Position numbers and translations under genes: made by a program. From NCBI RefSeq assembly GCF_015710975.1, contig NZ_CP049783.1, positions 5,528,001-5,592,000 of the forward strand: a stretch of DNA of 64,000 nucleotides, written 5' to 3'. Below, piece after piece: positions 31,992 to 39,626 of this stretch. The stretch's first letter is position 1. The number at the start of each line of letters is the position of its first letter. The notes under the pieces are model-generated. The model was given only the letters and a program-made list of their open reading frames with translations. It was not told the origin of the DNA and searched no databases. This DNA is from Paenibacillus polymyxa. Its GTDB lineage: Bacteria > Bacillota > Bacilli > Paenibacillales > Paenibacillaceae.

Positions 31992-32012
31992 CTTAGAGTT
32001 AGAATGAAATTC

Positions 32013-32056
32013 ACAACAAGCCCTCAACCGTATTGGTCAAGGGGCTTGTTGTTTTT
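32013..32056 (+). terminator. Terminator after ohr
   Basis: ACAACAAGCCCT pairs with AGGGGCTTGTTGT around a 15-nt loop and is followed by TTTTT. It lies 21 nt after the ohr stop. Confidence 0.9.
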
Positions 32057-32268
32057 CCATCAAGTAACATGGGAGATGATGCATAATCGTATATACGAAA
32101 TTGATATACTCATAGTATAATCACTATTGTCATAATCTTTTTTTCTTCTCCAGGTCTTTTTGCCTGGAGCTTTTTTTGTCCTTTTTTCCGTTTTCTCTCG
32201 TACACATATCCTTTGGAAAACTTTTCCGTAAAAATGATCGTACTGTATCTGCTAATTTTATCGCCTTT
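32057..32268. other. Intergenic region between ohr and comM with a plus-strand hairpin
   Basis: No gene seen. CTCCAGG (32148-32154) and CCTGGAG (32163-32169) form a hairpin followed by seven T on the plus strand only, so it could stop plus-strand transcription. A TATAAT lies at 32116-32121 on the plus strand without a good -35. No minus-strand terminator is visible for comM. Confidence 0.45.
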
Positions 32269-33888
32269 TTACATTTCGGATAAATTGGCGCTTGCTTTAT
32301 CCATATGGCGGTATTGAATAGCTTCAGCCACATGTGAAGTCGTAATTTTCTCTGACTCATGTAAGTCTGCAATGGTGCGGGACAGCTTGAGAATTCGATC
32401 ATACGCACGCATGCTTAAACCAAGTGCATCCATCGTCTGATTAAGCAGCTCCGCTGCATTTTGATCTAATACTGCATATTTACGCAGCATCTGACCGGAC
32501 AGCTCACTATTCCATGAAAAAGGAAGCTTACTGTATCTGCGGATTTGTATTGCTCGAGCAACCAACACCTGCTTTCTCATGTCAGCAGACGACAGGGATT
32601 CTTTTTCCTCCCGCCAGTCCTTTGGTTGTGATACCTCAAGCTGAAGATCAATTCGATCCAGCAATGGACCGGAAATACGTGAACGGTATCGAGCTACTGC
32701 TGTAGGTGAACAGGTACAGCGCTGATGTTCCGTGTTATTGCCGAAAAAGCCACAGTGACACGGATTCAAAGAAGCTGCAAGTAAAAAATGCGCCGGATAC
32801 TTAAATACAGCACGTGAACGACTGATTGTCACATGGTGGTCTTCCAGGGGCTGCCGCAGCACTTCTAGCACATGGCGGCTAAACTCTGGCAACTCATCTA
32901 GAAATAAAATCCCTCGGTGTGCAAGACTGATTTCTCCTGGTTTGGGTATGCCTCCTCCGCCCACCAATCCAGCAGCAGAGATTGTATGATGAGGCGCACG
33001 GAAGGGACGAACATGCATGAGATGAGGCGAGGACTCCTTCCATTTTCCTGCTGCGCTGTATACCTTGGTCACTTCTAGCGACTCCTTTTCAGTCAAAGGC
33101 GGTAGGATAGAGGGCAACCTGCGGATGAGCATCGTTTTTCCAGCACCCGGTGGTCCCATAAGAAGAATATTGTGCATTCCTGCTGCAGCGATAACTAATG
33201 CACGTTTGGCGTGTAGCTGACCCAGCACATCGCTGTAATCCTCCATATTACTGGCTAGTTCTTCTTGCTCGCACAACGGTATATGCTCTGCTTGAGGTAA
33301 ATGGTCATAGGAATGGATTATAACTTGCTTACTGGCAGTACAATTTTGATCGGTCACTTGGCCGTCTGGGATGCCTTGTGCATGATCATTAACTGGGATA
33401 AGATCCGCCAGATGGTGTATAGCGTAAATACGTATATCCGTAATTAGACGTGCCTCGCTTGCGTTTTCCTGAGGAAGCAGCACGGAATCGAATCCCTCTC
33501 GCTTGGCCAGATCAACCATGGACAACACCCCATTTACAGAACGAATGCTGCCATCCAGCGCCAGTTCGCCAATAAACAGCGTTCGTTCCCCCACTGGCAA
33601 AACAATCTGTTCACTGGTTGTCAGCAAGCCTAAAGCGATGGCAAGATCAAAAGATGAGCCTTCCTTACGCAAATCAGCAGGAGCTAAGTTAATCGTGATA
33701 CGCTGGGATGGATATTTGAATCCGCAGTTTTTGATTGCTGCTCTCACACGCTCTACTGCCTCTCGAATGGCTGAATCCGGCAATCCGATTATCGCAGTTT
33801 GAGGCAAGCCATTGGACAAATCAGTCTCAACTTCGATCAGAACGCCATCTATCCCATATAGACACGCTCCATGTAATTTTCCATACAT
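32269..33888 (-). CDS. comM: ComM/YifB family Mg-chelatase-like AAA+ ATPase
   Basis: A 539-aa protein of the YifB/ComM family. In naturally transformable bacteria ComM is a helicase that promotes branch migration during integration of incoming DNA; that role here is by homology. The N-terminal Lon-like/ChlI domain covers residues 1-165, Walker A GPPGAGKT is at 245-252, Walker B is GILFLDELPEF, and a small Cys cluster (CHCGFFGN...CTC) follows. The C-terminal lid is intact. The ATG at 33888 has its ribosome binding site inside a strong hairpin (33892-33960). Its 5' third is repeated as a pseudogene at 35419-35953. Confidence 0.94.
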   Translation of the reverse strand: MYGKLHGACLYGIDGVLIEVETDLSNGLPQTAIIGLPDSAIREAVERVRAAIKNCGFKYPSQRITINLAPADLRKEGSSFDLAIALGLLTTSEQIVLPVGERTLFIGELALDGSIRSVNGVLSMVDLAKREGFDSVLLPQENASEARLITDIRIYAIHHLADLIPVNDHAQGIPDGQVTDQNCTASKQVIIHSYDHLPQAEHIPLCEQEELASNMEDYSDVLGQLHAKRALVIAAAGMHNILLMGPPGAGKTMLIRRLPSILPPLTEKESLEVTKVYSAAGKWKESSPHLMHVRPFRAPHHTISAAGLVGGGGIPKPGEISLAHRGILFLDELPEFSRHVLEVLRQPLEDHHVTISRSRAVFKYPAHFLLAASLNPCHCGFFGNNTEHQRCTCSPTAVARYRSRISGPLLDRIDLQLEVSQPKDWREEKESLSSADMRKQVLVARAIQIRRYSKLPFSWNSELSGQMLRKYAVLDQNAAELLNQTMDALGLSMRAYDRILKLSRTIADLHESEKITTSHVAEAIQYRHMDKASANLSEM

Positions 33889-33891
33889 ATC

Positions 33892-33960
33892 AAAAAAGCA
33901 CCTCTCCTCATATTGAAATGTCCCTCTCGGGAATCATTGCCTATATGAAAAAAGGTGCTT
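33892..33960 (-). promoter_or_regulatory. Terminator-like hairpin sequestering the comM ribosome binding site
   Basis: On the minus strand an 18-nt arm (33960-33943, AAGCACCTTTTTTCATAT) pairs along its whole length, with several G-U pairs, with ATATGAGGAGAGGTGCTT (33913-33896). Six T follow (33897-33892) and the comM ATG is 3 nt later. The loop holds a second small hairpin (TCCC/GGGA). The 3' arm contains AGGAGAGGTG, the only ribosome binding site for comM. It may end the nitroreductase transcript, act as an attenuator of comM, or both. Confidence 0.75.
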
Positions 33961-34049
33961 CCAAATTTTCATTCATTGCAAATATAATGTTTTAAATTTA
34001 GCTCTCAATCCTAATTTCAAACCCTCAACTAAGCTTATCTGACGACAGA

Positions 34050-34107
34050 TTATTTGTCAATCAAGGTTAGCTTATCGGCTGCTGGAGTACGTGGTCTTGA
34101 TTCCGGG
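34050..34107 (-). pseudogene. 3' remnant of the nitroreductase gene
   Basis: The last ~19 codons and stop of the nitroreductase found intact at 36119-36670 (compare the end ADKLTLIDK). The sequence breaks off at TTCCGGG and joins a fragment of ylqH. It is not expressed as a functional protein. Confidence 0.85.
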
Positions 34108-34270
34108 GTTCGTCCAAATCAAGTTTGGACAGCACTTCAACCAGCGCAGCATCCTCCTGAACAGGAACCATGTTCTTTGGCTTTTTCTAAAATGCTATCC
34201 GCAATGCGACCGCTCCCCTTGGCAACGACAATCGGCGCTTCGCTCTCACCGGGCGTATATTTAAGGGCGA
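34108..34270 (-). pseudogene. Fragment of the FlhB-C-like gene ylqH
   Basis: About 160 bp closely matching 37288-37462 within the intact ylqH/flhX gene, including the AAGTTTGGACAG and CACCGGGCGTATATTT blocks. A 2-nt deletion (ACAGGAACCA versus ACAGGCACACCA) shifts the frame. Both ends join unrelated sequence, so it is a broken copy. Confidence 0.85.
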
Positions 34271-34335
34271 CCTGCGGATGAGCATCGTTTTTCTAGCACC
34301 CGGCCGTCCCATAAGAAGGATATTATGATACATTT
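34268..34335 (-). pseudogene. Fragment of comM around Walker A
   Basis: About 65 bp matching 33116-33175 of the intact comM, the segment that encodes the Walker A region, with several substitutions. It directly abuts the ylqH fragment and ends at a unique sequence, a third duplicated local gene piece in this patchwork. Confidence 0.8.
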
Positions 34336-34854
34336 TCACGCATTGAAAAACCAAGTAATATCAAGGGTTTGACGATACTAAGCGGTTTTCCTTTCGGTGG
34401 GAGATCGCTTTTTTCTTTTAGGCTCTATTAAACACATTTGTGATTTTCTTATAATTTCATAAATACTATTAATTTAAAATTTATCAGGAATGATGTATTG
34501 TCGAGTTTACTTTCCACGATGATGTAACTCTAAAAAGAAGACAAGTAAGCCGTCTCCCTTTCGGTCGGCGCGAAGAGGAGAAGCCGAAGGCTTGACGAGC
34601 GTTTCCTATTGCCGTACGCGAGAGTGCGATTTCCATTCTTTATTGATTTTCTTTACCCTAACTAAAGGATGGATCATCATGGATAACTGCGTTCTCCGAT
34701 AGATAAGTCTGATGAGAAATTGAAGGAACAAAAAAACCTGAGAGGTCAGGACTTTTTGCTCTGTGCGCTGCCGCGAATTCGACATTTTATTTCCACGTAG
34801 TGGCGGGAGTTTTCAGTTTTCACCCGTGAGAAGTGCGTTCAGCAGGTCTAACGA
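34336..34854. other. Unique segment inside the duplicated region, no gene recognised
   Basis: About 520 nt, AT-rich at first (34430-34500) with short open frames only. No terminal inverted repeats or transposase were recognised. A plus-strand frame at 34336-34435 is open for about 30 codons to a TAA and may be the tail of a lost gene, but I do not recognise it. The right part holds a minus-strand terminator for the downstream small gene. Confidence 0.5.
34730..34755 (-). terminator. Terminator after the 110-aa orphan gene
   Basis: On the minus strand CCTGA-cctc-TCAGG is followed by TTTTTTTG. It lies about 100 nt downstream of the small gene at 34855-35187 and suggests a complete transcription unit inside the inserted DNA. 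Confidence 0.7.
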
Positions 34855-35187
34855 TTAGAAAACCACGACTGAAAGTCGTATATTGAGGGGACTACCCCAG
34901 CCAGTATTCCCACGTACAATTACTATACCGTCGTCATGCGGAACGACGTTATGGATCGTCATGGTAGCAGCTCCTTGAAACGGCTTAACTTGACCGCCAA
35001 AAATACCAATTTCCGTGATCGAGACAAGTACCCTACTTGAGGAATTAACAAACCCAGCCAGGTTCAAGCGACTTTGGAACAAATTCGGACCTACATTGTT
35101 GATACTAAAAATGAATGCGGTACCTGCTTTAGTTCTTAGGCGACGCGTAGGTTTCAGAATTTTTCTAGAAGAATTTACTTTTCCCAT
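34855..35187 (-). CDS. Unrecognised 110-aa protein in the duplicated region
   Basis: I do not recognise this protein. The start ATG at 35187 has AAGGGAAG 9 nt upstream; the frame extends 30 codons further without a better site. A basic N-terminus (KVNSSRKILKPTRRLRTK) is followed by a sequence that alternates hydrophobic and polar residues and is rich in Val, Ile, Gly and Asn, suggesting a beta-sandwich. There is no signal peptide, Cys or His cluster. It has its own terminator, so it may be a functional cargo gene brought in with the insertion. Confidence 0.6.
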   Translation of the reverse strand: MGKVNSSRKILKPTRRLRTKAGTAFIFSINNVGPNLFQSRLNLAGFVNSSSRVLVSITEIGIFGGQVKPFQGAATMTIHNVVPHDDGIVIVRGNTGWGSPLNIRLSVVVF

Positions 35188-35418
35188 TCGAATCAACTTC
35201 CCTTCTTTTGTAATAATATAGAATATGCTAGTTTTTATAGAATCGAAACAGACAAACAGATTGGAAAAGATGACCATCTTTATCAGTAGGCAATAAAAAA
35301 AAACCGCGATGTCAGGGCTATGCTCGTAAACTTGATTGAAGTGAGCGAACGAAAAACGACGGAGAGCTGCTCAAGCGGATTGCCACGCTACAAATGAAGA
35401 TCAAGGAACTCCATCACG
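35188..35418. other. Upstream region of the orphan gene and junction sequence
   Basis: AT-rich sequence probably holding the orphan gene promoter (a minus-strand TATATT lies about 20 nt before its start). From 35345 to 35418 a plus-strand frame reads SERTKNDGELLKRIATLQMK, a helical, charged stretch that looks like the remnant of a coding gene; it is cut at 35419 by the start of the comM pseudogene. I cannot assign it. Confidence 0.4.
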
Positions 35419-35953
35419 TGGCCGTCCGGAGTGCCTTGTGCATGATCATTAACCGGAATAAGATGCACTAGATGGCGTATGACGTATAGCGTAAATACGT
35501 ATATCCGTAATTAGACGTGCCTCGCTTGCGTTTTCTTGAGGAAGCAGCACGGAATCGAATCCCTCTCACTTGGCCAGATCAACCATGGACAACACCCCAT
35601 CACAGGACGCATGCTGCCATCCAGCGCCAGCTCGCCAATAAACAGCGTTCGTTCCCCCACCGGTAAAACACCTGCTCACTGGTTGTCAGCAAGCCTAAAG
35701 CGATGGCAAGATCAAAAGATGAACCTTCCTTACGCAAATCAGCAGGAGCTAAGTTAATCGTGACACGCTGGGATGGATATTTGAATCCGCAGTTTTTGAT
35801 TGCTGCTCTCACACGCTCTACTGCCTCTCGAATCGCTGAATCCGGCAATCCGATAATCGCGGTTTGAGGCAAGCCATTGGACAAATCAGTCTCAACTTCG
35901 ATCAGAACGCCATCTATCCCATATAGACACGCTCCATGTAATTTTCCATACAT
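35419..35953 (-). pseudogene. Truncated, frameshifted copy of comM
   Basis: It corresponds to about codons 1-178 of the intact comM (32269-33888). Single- or few-base indels near 35600 and 35669 break the frame, and the 3' two thirds are absent. The upstream hairpin is also duplicated. It sits immediately downstream of the intact nitroreductase gene, the place where an intact comM would be expected. Confidence 0.9.
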
Positions 35954-36176
35954 ATCAAAAAGCACCTCTTCCTCATATTGAAATGTTCCTCTCGGGAATC
36001 ATTGCCTATATGAAAAAAGGTGCTTCCAAATTTTCATTCATTGCAAAAAAATATAATGTTCTAAATTTAGCTCTCAACCCTAATTTCAGATCCTCAACTA
36101 AGCTTATCTGACGACAGATTATTTGTCAATCAAGGTTAACTTATCGGCTACTGGAGTACGGGATCTTGATTCCGGG
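35419..36176. repeat. Right copy of the ~750-bp direct repeat
   Basis: The partner of 33359-34107, differing by scattered substitutions and small indels (visibly several percent). It contains the comM pseudogene, the duplicated hairpin (about 35958-36025, with a 5-T run and one extra base in the 3' arm), and the last codons of the intact nitroreductase. Confidence 0.9.
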
Positions 36177-36670
36177 ATAACATCAGGATAGCCTGCATAT
36201 ATCATTCCAATTACCTTCTCACCTGGTTGAATTCCCAAGCATTTACGGAATTTAGGCGAATACAAAAATGGTTTTGTTACCCAAAACGTTCCGATTCCTT
36301 TGCTCCATGCAGCAAGCATAAAGTTCTGTACAAGCGCGCTGACCGCTGCAAAATCTTCATCCCAAACTGCTTGACGCGGGTCTTCTTCCATCACTACTAA
36401 AAGCTGAATCGGGTTGTGTAAAATCCCACTTTCAAACTTGTTATCCTTACCGATATCGGCGGCAATTGCCTCTGCAAGCTTTCTCCGTCCCTCACCAGCA
36501 AACAACAGAAAGCGCCACGGTTCACGCATTTTATGATTAGGAGCCCATACCGCGACGTCCAGTAGTTCTTTAATCGTATCTACCGGGATAGAGTCAGATT
36601 TGAATCGTTTAATCGTCCGGCGTTCCTGAATTACATCTATGACATGTTCACTAAAGGTATGCTTTGTCAC
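36119..36670 (-). CDS. Nitroreductase family FMN oxidoreductase
   Basis: A 183-aa nitroreductase of the YdjA-like short group. The FMN-phosphate site RRTIKRFKSD is at residues 17-26; WAPNHKMREPWRF and the C-terminal GYPDVIPESRSRTPVADK are typical. Such enzymes use NAD(P)H to reduce nitro, quinone or related substrates; the natural substrate is unknown. The start is GTG with GGAGGATT upstream. A strong Fur-box match lies 53-67 nt upstream, hinting at iron-responsive expression. The stop is followed by the comM pseudogene copy. Confidence 0.9.
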   Translation of the reverse strand: MTKHTFSEHVIDVIQERRTIKRFKSDSIPVDTIKELLDVAVWAPNHKMREPWRFLLFAGEGRRKLAEAIAADIGKDNKFESGILHNPIQLLVVMEEDPRQAVWDEDFAAVSALVQNFMLAAWSKGIGTFWVTKPFLYSPKFRKCLGIQPGEKVIGMIYAGYPDVIPESRSRTPVADKLTLIDK

Positions 36671-36722
36671 GTAAATCCTCCTTCACAGGTACAACGACTA
36701 GATATTCATTATAGAATGAAAA

Positions 36723-36737
36723 TGATAACTATTCTCA
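36723..36737. promoter_or_regulatory. Probable Fur box upstream of the nitroreductase
   Basis: TGATAACTATTCTCA matches the 7-1-7 Fur consensus TGATAATNATTATCA at 12 of the 14 specified bases. A minus-strand TATAAT lies at 36708-36713 and a weak TTGAGA overlaps the box, so bound Fur would cover the -35. Fur recognition of 7-1-7 motifs is established in Bacillus; regulation here is inferred. Confidence 0.6.
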
Positions 36738-36823
36738 ATAAAATATACCTGCAGCTTTCCTTTCTGTCAACCTGTACATATGAATTCAGTCCTGCGCTCC
36801 AACCTTCGTAAGTTCTTACTCTT

Positions 36824-37210
36824 TTAAAATGCATCTATAAAATGGTCCGTAACCACAGCCGTTTCATCAGATAATCGTACAGAAATCATATCAAAACGAA
36901 TTGGAGCATCTCCAATTCCGTTCATATGCAAGTATACTGCGGCTGTTTGACGAACCTGGGTGATTTTACGCGGAGTAACTGATTCTGCTGGTGTTCCATA
37001 TTTGGAGCTACTTCGGCTACGTACTTCAATAAACACGAGTATATGCTCCTGCCTGGCAATCAGATCTATTTCCCCGCTGCGGCATCGCCAATTGCGGTCT
37101 AGGATACGATAACCCAGGGTTTCTAAAAACAAAGCTGCAGCCTCTTCTCCCATTGCTCCTTTGGCTTTCCGTTGATCCTTACCTCTCGTCTTCATGTCAT
37201 ACCCCATCAC
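36824..37210 (-). CDS. yraN: UPF0102 protein, YraN endonuclease-like
   Basis: A 128-aa member of the YraN/UPF0102 family with a predicted restriction-endonuclease fold. The core motifs are GEEAAALFLETLGYRILDRNWR, GEIDLIAR, and VFIEVRSRSSSKYG. The family lysine-bearing E-x-K is here E-V-R. Function is not established. The start ATG at 37210 overlaps ylqH by 4 nt; an ATG at 37195 (MKTRGKDQRKAKG) is an alternative start. It ends about 150 nt before the nitroreductase. Confidence 0.88.
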   Translation of the reverse strand: MMGYDMKTRGKDQRKAKGAMGEEAAALFLETLGYRILDRNWRCRSGEIDLIARQEHILVFIEVRSRSSSKYGTPAESVTPRKITQVRQTAAVYLHMNGIGDAPIRFDMISVRLSDETAVVTDHFIDAF

Positions 37211-37506
37211 CAGTCATCTCTTGGAGCAAGCCGATCCATTTGATAAATATAGGTTAGCACCTCTGCTACCAACTGATAGAGTTCAGCTGGGATTTGCTCG
37301 TCCAAATCAAGTTTGGACAGTACTTCAACCAGCGCAGCATCCTCCTGAACAGGCACACCATGCTCTTTGGCTTTTTCTAAAATACTGTCCGCAATGCGGC
37401 CGCTTCCCTTGGCAACAACAATCGGCGCTTCGCTCTCACCGGGCGTATATTTTAGGGCGACCGCCTTCTTCATGGAAGGAGAGGGAGGGTCCAAGGGCTC
37501 TTTCAT
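37207..37506 (-). CDS. ylqH: FlhB C-terminal-domain-like protein (YlqH/FlhX family)
   Basis: A 99-aa soluble protein homologous to the cytoplasmic domain of FlhB: KKAVALKYTPGESEAPIVVAKG aligns with the region right after the NPTH site of FlhB, and AELYQLVAEVLTYIYQMD with its end. The NPTH autocleavage motif and all membrane helices are absent, so it resembles the already cleaved FlhB fragment. B. subtilis has the same pair, ylqG-ylqH, at this place. It overlaps ylqG and yraN by 4 nt each. It is a real gene, not a flhB remnant. A partial copy lies at 34108-34270. Confidence 0.88.
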   Translation of the reverse strand: MKEPLDPPSPSMKKAVALKYTPGESEAPIVVAKGSGRIADSILEKAKEHGVPVQEDAALVEVLSKLDLDEQIPAELYQLVAEVLTYIYQMDRLAPRDDW

Positions 37507-39626
37507 ATTTTAAGATCGACTCCTTTATATGGCTGAGGTACATAGCTTTGTACCTCTGAAGAGACGGAACTGCTCTGTTCAGTCCTTATGGGCATTGGCT
37601 CGGTTCGCAGTGTTAGAAGTTGGTAGCCTAGCGACTCCAGCGCGGTGCGAATGGACTCACGTCCACTGGTTAACAGCGAAGCCGCCCATTCCTGATCATT
37701 ATGAAGCTTGAGGCTTACTATCCGATCTACAACCTGTACATCCACTAACGTCGGACCAAGCCCTTTCATGTCCAAATCAAACCAAAGTCGACAGTTGGAG
37801 GCATCCAGTTCTCCGCGTTTGCCGCGGCGGGACTGAATCTGGATTGTAGCTGTTTCACGACCGTCCGGCCCAATAAACGGTATAAACATATGCACTTGTG
37901 CAAAAGGTGCCGTTCGGTCTGTATTGAGCAGCAGCTGCTGGCCTGTCAGGTGCTGTACAACCTGCTGTGCCGCCTCTTTCAAAGCAGGCGGCAGGTCGTC
38001 ACTGCTCATTAGCTGGAGTAGTGCCCCTTTTACGGTGTCTGCGGCCGCTGACACGGAGTCGTCTGCCGTAGCCGCTAATCCCGGCAGCGTCTGCGGCACT
38101 CCCTCGGGCGGCTCTGTACGTGCCGCCGTCCCTTGCGCGAGCTGTGCAGTCGAGCGGTGTACCTGCTGCTCGTGCTCAGCACCGAGTAGCTTCAGCACGC
38201 GGCCTACCCACGGATCCTCCATAGGGCTGATCTTCGTGCTCGTCGCCGTAGGCTGTGAAGCGGCAGCATCTGCCGTACGCGAAGCGCCAGCCGCTGGCTG
38301 CGCTACCTCTCCCTTGGACTGATCTGGCGCAGCCGTGCTCAGTTCGGGTGGCACTGCTGCACGCAGCTCTTGCAGAAGGAGACGCAGCCGCTGGATCGGA
38401 GCCTCTAGCGTAGCAGCGTTGCCCTCCGCGGAGGGCGGCGCAGAGCCAGCTGCTGACTGTGCAGAAGGACGGTCTGCCATGACTACGTTTAAGGCAGACT
38501 TCGCCCCCGCAGGCTCTGCCGTGGCCGGAGATGGAGCACCATCGGCATCCTTAAACTGCATACCTGCCGCAGTAGCTTGCTGTGGTTGCTCCACTTTAGT
38601 ACGGGAGCCGTTTAATGCGTCAGCAGCATCCGATTCAGGCGCATTTGCACCAGCGTCCAATACCACTGTCGCTCCTCGTCCGTTAACTGCTTCCGGCTCT
38701 TTTGAGGCAGTCCCGTTGGCTGCATATGCAGTAGATCCCGCCGGAGTATCCGAATCGGTAGCCAAAACACTCGCTTCGCTCACTGTAGCAGCAAGATTGG
38801 CTGCCTGAGTCCCTTTTAACAATTCCTTGCCACCTGTGGCTTGTTGTCCCGTTTCTGCCTGTTTTGCAGCGGCAGAGCCAGAGGGCTCCTTGGACAATGT
38901 AAGAGTTTGGCCTTCCTGTCCATCTGCAATCATCACAGAAGAAGTGCCTGTTGGACTAGCTGATGTTCGGTCAGCGCTTTTTATTGTTGCTTCCCCAACT
39001 GAACGGTCAGTGGGCGTTCCCTGCCCTTGCTGCTTTAACACCGCTTCAAGTTCTTGCTCCAACGATGACAACAGATCATTTAAAGGAGGCCCAAACATCG
39101 TTTGGCGCAATCCATTTATGCTTTCGGCTGTTAATGGGAGTCCCCGCTGAAAGGCAACTGCCGCTGCCTGTACAAATGTGCCCAATTGCACATTTCCGCT
39201 TTGCTTCGACAAGGCTTCTTGTAAAGAAGCCGCATTTTCAGATGTCAACGGCACACCATTCTTTTGCATTGCCTGTATAAGCTCTCTGTTCTGAGCTGTA
39301 TCCGGCAGTCCCACCGATTCCAATACATCTGTCAGCGCTACGGTTTGCTGTGGCATATTGGCAGCATCATTCAGAGGCTTAAGCACAGTCATTCCACTGG
39401 AAGAAGCCGGCTGTACCTGAAACGTTGCAGTCTGTCCAGGTTGAAGAGGGGTCTCCAGCTTTGCCCTAACCTGAGAACCCTGTATTTGCAACACTGCCTC
39501 GTCGCCGTCCTCAGACACCTTTAATACGACTCCTCTTACGACCTGGCCTGGCTGCATATCAAGTTTTTTCGCCTCTCCCGCCTTCACATCTCCAAGTAAT
39601 CCACGGAATACAGATCCGATGTTCAT
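37503..39626 (-). CDS. ylqG: FliK-like protein of unknown role (YlqG family)
   Basis: A 707-aa protein. The N-terminal ~100 residues include an OB-like segment (GQVVRGVVLKVSEDGDEAVLQIQG). The middle (about 220-520) is Ala/Thr/Ser/Gln/Glu-rich, low complexity and higher in GC than its neighbours. The C-terminal ~130 residues (HMFIPFIGPDGRETATIQIQ; CRLWFDLDMKGLGPTLVDVQ) resemble the FliK hook-length domain. With ylqH next to it, this mirrors the fliK/flhB pair of the flagellar switch. Its function is not known. ATG with ATGA overlap to ylqH. Confidence 0.82.
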   Translation of the reverse strand: MNIGSVFRGLLGDVKAGEAKKLDMQPGQVVRGVVLKVSEDGDEAVLQIQGSQVRAKLETPLQPGQTATFQVQPASSSGMTVLKPLNDAANMPQQTVALTDVLESVGLPDTAQNRELIQAMQKNGVPLTSENAASLQEALSKQSGNVQLGTFVQAAAVAFQRGLPLTAESINGLRQTMFGPPLNDLLSSLEQELEAVLKQQGQGTPTDRSVGEATIKSADRTSASPTGTSSVMIADGQEGQTLTLSKEPSGSAAAKQAETGQQATGGKELLKGTQAANLAATVSEASVLATDSDTPAGSTAYAANGTASKEPEAVNGRGATVVLDAGANAPESDAADALNGSRTKVEQPQQATAAGMQFKDADGAPSPATAEPAGAKSALNVVMADRPSAQSAAGSAPPSAEGNAATLEAPIQRLRLLLQELRAAVPPELSTAAPDQSKGEVAQPAAGASRTADAAASQPTATSTKISPMEDPWVGRVLKLLGAEHEQQVHRSTAQLAQGTAARTEPPEGVPQTLPGLAATADDSVSAAADTVKGALLQLMSSDDLPPALKEAAQQVVQHLTGQQLLLNTDRTAPFAQVHMFIPFIGPDGRETATIQIQSRRGKRGELDASNCRLWFDLDMKGLGPTLVDVQVVDRIVSLKLHNDQEWAASLLTSGRESIRTALESLGYQLLTLRTEPMPIRTEQSSSVSSEVQSYVPQPYKGVDLKI

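Follow-up and report, generated by a model that had tools for sequence, protein, structure and literature searches.

A probable decayed tandem duplication harbouring a foreign gene next to comM of Paenibacillus polymyxa

Gene fragments between comM and a nitroreductase gene

The window analysed here is a stretch of 64,000 nucleotides of Paenibacillus polymyxa (assembly GCF_015710975.1, contig NZ_CP049783.1, positions 5,528,001 to 5,592,000 of the forward strand), and its subject is a patchwork of duplicated gene fragments located between intact comM and nitroreductase genes and interrupted by a foreign insert that contains one small gene. This arrangement quite likely originated as a tandem duplication that took up an imported gene and decayed, which is its best account and would make it an old event of a known kind. 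The patchwork was also found in a second genome of the genus, denoted G026. Positions are those of the window, and the segments are as follows, with primes marking the pieces and comM'' denoting the broken comM part of copy 2.

32269–33888, minus strand: comM (Mg-chelatase-like ATPase), intact original, open reading frame (ORF) of 539 amino acids, PF01078/PF13541/PF13335
33359–34107: copy 1, comprising the comM 5' part, intergenic DNA and the truncated nitroreductase 3' end, about 94–95% identical to 35419–36176
34105–34110: nitroreductase'/ylqH' joint, GGGAT at both sources (36174–36178 and 37289–37293), identical joint in G026
34110–34272, minus strand: ylqH' piece (FlhB C-terminal-like), 93% identical to 37298–37462
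34264–34272: ylqH'/comM' joint at AGGGC(G/A)ACC, sources 37454–37462 and 33111–33119 (8/9 identical), different joint in G026
34264–34327, minus strand: comM' piece, 91% identical to 33111–33174, the 33127–33174 part being also present in G026
34317–34327: 11-bp comM sequence, left copy of a candidate target-site duplication, recurring with one mismatch at the right insert end in G026
34328–35413: foreign insert
34737–34750: terminator-like hairpin, both strands, 3' of the small gene
34855–35187, minus strand: gene for 110 amino acids (listed ORF to 35277, 140 amino acids)
35328–35413, plus strand: remnant of a second reading frame, with one stop in the window; longer in G026, with two stops
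35419–36176: copy 2, comprising the broken 5' part of comM'' with frameshifts, the intergenic DNA and the 3' end of the nitroreductase gene, which is intact
36119–36670, minus strand: nitroreductase, intact, 183 amino acids, PF00881 (E = 8.8e-29)
36824–37210, minus strand: yraN (UPF0102), PF02021, part of the putative duplicated unit, now in a single copy
37207–37506, minus strand: native ylqH (FlhB C-terminal-like), PF01312, a P. ottowii-like allele (tree)

The direct repeat of 33359–34107 at 35419–36176 was real, as the original prediction had claimed, and the identity was 94.2% across 274 aligned bases and 94.9% across another 473, plus indels, which the comparison with relatives assigned to copy 2. 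Between the copies lay the ylqH piece of 163 base pairs (bp), the comM piece of 64 bp (predicted as 65 bp), which overlapped it by 9 bp, and about 1.09 kb without a second genomic copy. The search of 34100–35420 against its own genome (5.96 Mb, two contigs) returned the query itself, the ylqH source (E = 7e-65) and the comM source (E = 8e-18), far beyond chance, in agreement with the broken ylqH piece and the approximately 1.1 kb of unique DNA noted before. The only open frame in the unique DNA, the one small gene of the original prediction, was 34855–35277 on the minus strand, with a likely start at 35187.

The view of the region as a patchwork of duplicated fragments was upheld with a correction concerning the damage, which was unequal. 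In copy 2, comM'' was frameshifted, starting near the 33354 equivalent and carrying 1-bp and 7-bp indels, and nitroreductase' of copy 1 was truncated. Outside these pieces the intact comM and nitroreductase genes persisted, as predicted, and therefore the region is probably neutral debris. The segments followed the order expected of a tandem copy: nitroreductase', ylqH', comM' and then comM''-nitroreductase. A structured RNA element was rejected, as Rfam gave no match up to E = 1 within 32000–38000.

The locus in G026 and in other relatives

Among 75 genomes of the genus (the window's own included), the insert was matched in the window's genome and in G026 only, in the latter with 94% identity over bases 377–1085 and 96% over bases 1–225 of the 1086-base query. 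The order in G026 was comM, truncated nitroreductase (to the 34107 equivalent), ylqH', comM', insert, comM part, nitroreductase, yraN and ylqH. Two joints were common to the window and G026, namely nitroreductase'/ylqH' (34105–34110) and comM'/insert (33174/34328). Other details differed. The ylqH' piece stopped at the 37462 equivalent in the window and reached the 37501 equivalent in G026, and the G026 insert was devoid of most of 34553–34703 (a 14-bp stretch, 34579–34592, being kept) and extended about 75 bp further to the right. In G026, comM'' covered about 33158–33369 and continued from 33834 onwards, which indicates that it formerly reached further into comM than it now does in the window. 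Hence ylqH', the insert and comM'' were each probably longer in the ancestor than they now are in either genome. The two lineages share the patchwork either by common descent or through a later transfer between them.

The comM-nitroreductase junction was examined in 14 close relatives with the use of comM 5', nitroreductase and insert probes, the other 60 genomes of the genus matching at lower identity. A single junction without the insert was found in 13 of them (G027, G019, G025, G007, G045, G013, G060, G008, G059, G061, G062, G063 and G018), G026 with its patchwork being the fourteenth. The predicted ancestral order with one junction was therefore seen in every close relative examined other than G026, and the outcome named beforehand as refuting the prediction, all relatives sharing the arrangement, did not occur (13/14 lacked it). 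Similarly, all eight Paenibacillus comM loci L007–L014 mapped both window copies to one site without the insert; two of them came from the same genomes as the 13 above and others may do so, and L015 and L016 stood outside that mapping. At the amino acid level, the best segments of comM relatives were 94% identical for P. ottowii and 83% for P. brasilensis among the 10 loci returned, which may omit the records nearest to the window.

A second comM-like stretch was noticed in G062 (C16:859491–859674, 80% over 184 bases), on a contig other than that of its comM locus. Beyond the patchwork, identity between relatives within the frame 37503–39626 was lowest in 38100–38999, where 300-bp bins were 86–91% identical to G026 and 72.7–79.2% to P. 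brasilensis.

The insert, its ends and its protein family

In G026 the insert was flanked by AGGATATTATG on the left and AGAATATTATG on the right. At the insertion site, the window's native comM reads AGAATATTGTG and that of G026 reads AGAATATTATG. Such flanks resemble a direct duplication of 11 bp of target DNA with one mismatch, present in G026 only; the window has no visible repeat because the right end of the insert region is missing there. In accordance with the original prediction, no transposase was seen in the insert, and its ends in the window had no inverted repeats of at least 20 bp. The ends of the G026 insert agreed at 9/40 positions in register, with 10/20 for the best ungapped 20-mer, and formed no inverted repeat. 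The scan for promoters in 34300–35450 yielded three promoter-like sites against 2.2 expected, none of them ahead of the small gene. Among the 75 genomes, the second reading frame near the right insert end was found at this place only, in the window's genome and G026. An origin of the insert from a phage or plasmid was rejected, as phage records gave no match at the DNA or protein level and the one plasmid match was distant, covering 16% of the insert within the gene.

The frame for 110 amino acids was open in the window and in G026, the two versions differing by 10 nonsynonymous and 5 synonymous changes. The resulting ratio of nonsynonymous to synonymous divergence (dN/dS) of about 0.64 does not demonstrate recent constraint, and the value of about 0.48 relative to the copy from a third genome, G326, suggests some longer-term constraint. 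Three of 394 Paenibacillaceae genomes carried the gene, in one copy each. The order-wide search of 392 evenly drawn genomes returned the window's genome and G026; G326 was not among the matches and may lie outside that draw. The G326 copy was located on a contig of 62,141 bases, and its sequence is that of P0004, annotated by its source as a Paenibacillus alkaliterrae hypothetical protein. The DNA alignment to G326 covered 34729–35291 at 75% identity, hence the gene with flanks on both sides, and stopped short of the insert ends. This relative (L051, G326:C98:55000–62141) lay near a contig end, and the last bases of L051, read by eye on the other strand with no search made, resemble what we take to be a fragment of an IS3-type transposase.

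The protein search revealed 16 proteins, 15 of which were aligned (P0016 being left out), with 27 invariant columns. This unnamed family (P0001–P0015), to which the insert gene belongs by sequence, comprised proteins of 88–162 amino acids from Paenibacillaceae, a Methylocaldum plasmid and other public sources; on the plasmid, the relative of the insert gene adjoined a recombinase gene. The C-terminal part was strongly conserved, with the majority pattern NLAG.VNSSS...HNVVPHDDG. No Pfam hit of the 15 members was better than E = 0.16, and the three proteins compared with each of NCBIfam and PHROGs had no match. The structure model, built from 15 sequences with P0001 (140 amino acids, two residues off the window frame) in the first row, had a mean predicted local distance difference test score of 71.7 and a predicted template modelling (TM) score of 0.64. 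A fold search with it against the PDB returned nothing below E = 0.001 (best E = 0.02, TM score 0.30), and no conclusion was drawn.

Origin of the locus and comparison with known systems

In the tree of the 274-bp block (15 rows), both copies of the window and of G026 clustered together (84/82) and were separated from the remaining 11 rows. The window's two copies paired at 81/78, the remainder of the group being unresolved. The native ylqH of the window (37298–37462) grouped with P. ottowii (98/96), being 96.4% identical to it and 92.7% to G026, and the fossil piece 34110–34272 was nearest to the native ylqH of G026 (96.9%). As the native allele is P. ottowii-like while the fossil piece is G026-like, recombination probably replaced the native gene once the duplication had taken place, and the allele that this gene seems to have lost thereby survives in the fossil piece. 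Over a 475-bp block, comM of G026 was 98.3% identical to G027 versus 93.5% to the window, a further sign of exchange. The synonymous divergence (dS) between the window and G026 was 0.17 for comM, 0.27 for the nitroreductase gene, 0.40 for yraN, 0.28 for ylqH and 0.16 for rnhB, against 0.065 for the insert gene, and the insert DNA was 94–96% identical. Such a low divergence of the insert could be explained either by movement of the locus between lineages after their split or by replacement of the flanks from more distant relatives. Of the earlier suggestion of an old event or homologous recombination, the old event was supported and recombination gained support from the ylqH alleles and the low insert divergence.

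A decayed tandem duplication would have developed in four steps, whose order and repeat-mediated mechanism we infer. Illegitimate recombination at a short shared sequence, the AGGGC region, would first have joined the ylqH 5' part to the middle of comM; the joint reads AGGGCGACC in the window, with AGGGCGACC at 37454–37462 and AGGGCAACC at 33111–33119 as its sources. The product would be a tandem duplication of the unit comM'-nitroreductase-yraN-ylqH' of at least 2.3 kb (2313 bp by arithmetic on the joint positions, with the later 2.07 kb excluded). About 1.1 kb may then have been deleted from the first copy between the GGGAT repeats, which are 1115 bp apart in native coordinates, fusing the truncated nitroreductase' to ylqH'. 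In the third step, foreign DNA of about 1.1–1.2 kb with the small gene would have entered the second comM copy at 33164–33174, leaving the 11-bp direct repeat. Finally, the window lineage and G026 would have lost different further pieces, and the native flanks would have been altered by homologous recombination with related species. The insertion with flank duplication proposed originally is thus not the simplest account, since the presence and order of the ylqH and comM pieces fit a tandem duplication that came before the deletion in the first copy and the insertion into the second.

Several observations weigh against this history. The pairing of the window copies fits gene conversion or a window-specific duplication no less well than an ancestral one, and the block trees were short (274 and 165 bp), with the four-copy group and its inner order below the star level of the tool. 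The insert diverged less than the synonymous sites of the five flanking genes, a pattern not expected under simple vertical descent. None of the genomes examined holds an intermediate with the full tandem duplication, and the ylqH'/comM' joint of G026 has little clear microhomology.

A variant of the decayed duplication, in which the patchwork arose in one lineage and the whole locus was passed on by homologous recombination, is a serious candidate, though short of an even chance, and its odds overlap those of the duplication itself. The insert difference of about 4–6% compared with dS of 0.16–0.40 in the flanking genes is consistent with such a transfer, as are the grouping of the native ylqH with P. 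ottowii and the G027-like block in comM of G026. However, the flanks may themselves have been replaced, inflating dS, and both lineages had time for several separate deletions.

Direct repeats around foreign DNA would also result from a Campbell-type single crossover, in which circular or concatenated DNA already carrying nitroreductase'-ylqH'-comM'-insert recombined via the comM-nitroreductase stretch and duplicated it. The exchange with relatives in the flanks and the insert being less diverged than they are agree with this, but the explanation is unlikely: it requires a ready-made patchwork, the insert matched no phage record and a plasmid only inside the gene, and ylqH lies on the chromosome just beyond the nitroreductase gene and yraN, so a tandem duplication explains its presence without extra steps.

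It is quite improbable that a specific enzyme moved the insert as a mobile element or gene cassette and that this caused the rearrangement. The 11-bp repeat around the G026 insert, the recurrence of the gene and flanks in G326 near the putative transposase fragment and the recombinase gene beside the Methylocaldum relative speak for it, whereas the ends without inverted repeats, the gene without a family match, its single copy per genome in 3/394 genomes and the homology to G326 ending before the insert ends speak against it. A more specific form, in which a transposase-less cassette of an undescribed protein family, with its own promoter, terminators and a repeat of about 11 bp, moves among Paenibacillaceae and triggered the duplication, was given very little credence. 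Near-identical repeats can mislead assemblers, but an assembly artefact was rejected almost with certainty because the independent genome G026 carries the patchwork with two identical joints, about 5% divergence and deletions of its own, and the window copies differ by 5%.

The locus, ordinary in other respects, is a well-resolved example of bacterial duplication, uptake of foreign DNA and stepwise loss, because two lineages froze different stages of it; the unnamed small-protein family may merit a study of its own. In bacteria, illegitimate tandem duplication at short homologies, followed by deletion and pseudogene decay, is well established. The locus resembles it in the direct repetition of neighbouring genes and the presence of one intact and one decaying copy, and possibly in the short shared sequences at the joints, although the duplication joint differs in G026. 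It differs from the standard case in that the second copy took in foreign DNA and that two genomes bear different later deletions. Insertion cassettes without a transposase are also known, such as mobile insertion cassettes and miniature inverted-repeat transposable elements. The insert is similar to them as a passenger gene without a transposase and with an apparent direct repeat of the target, but unlike them it has no terminal inverted repeats and no second copy in its own genome.

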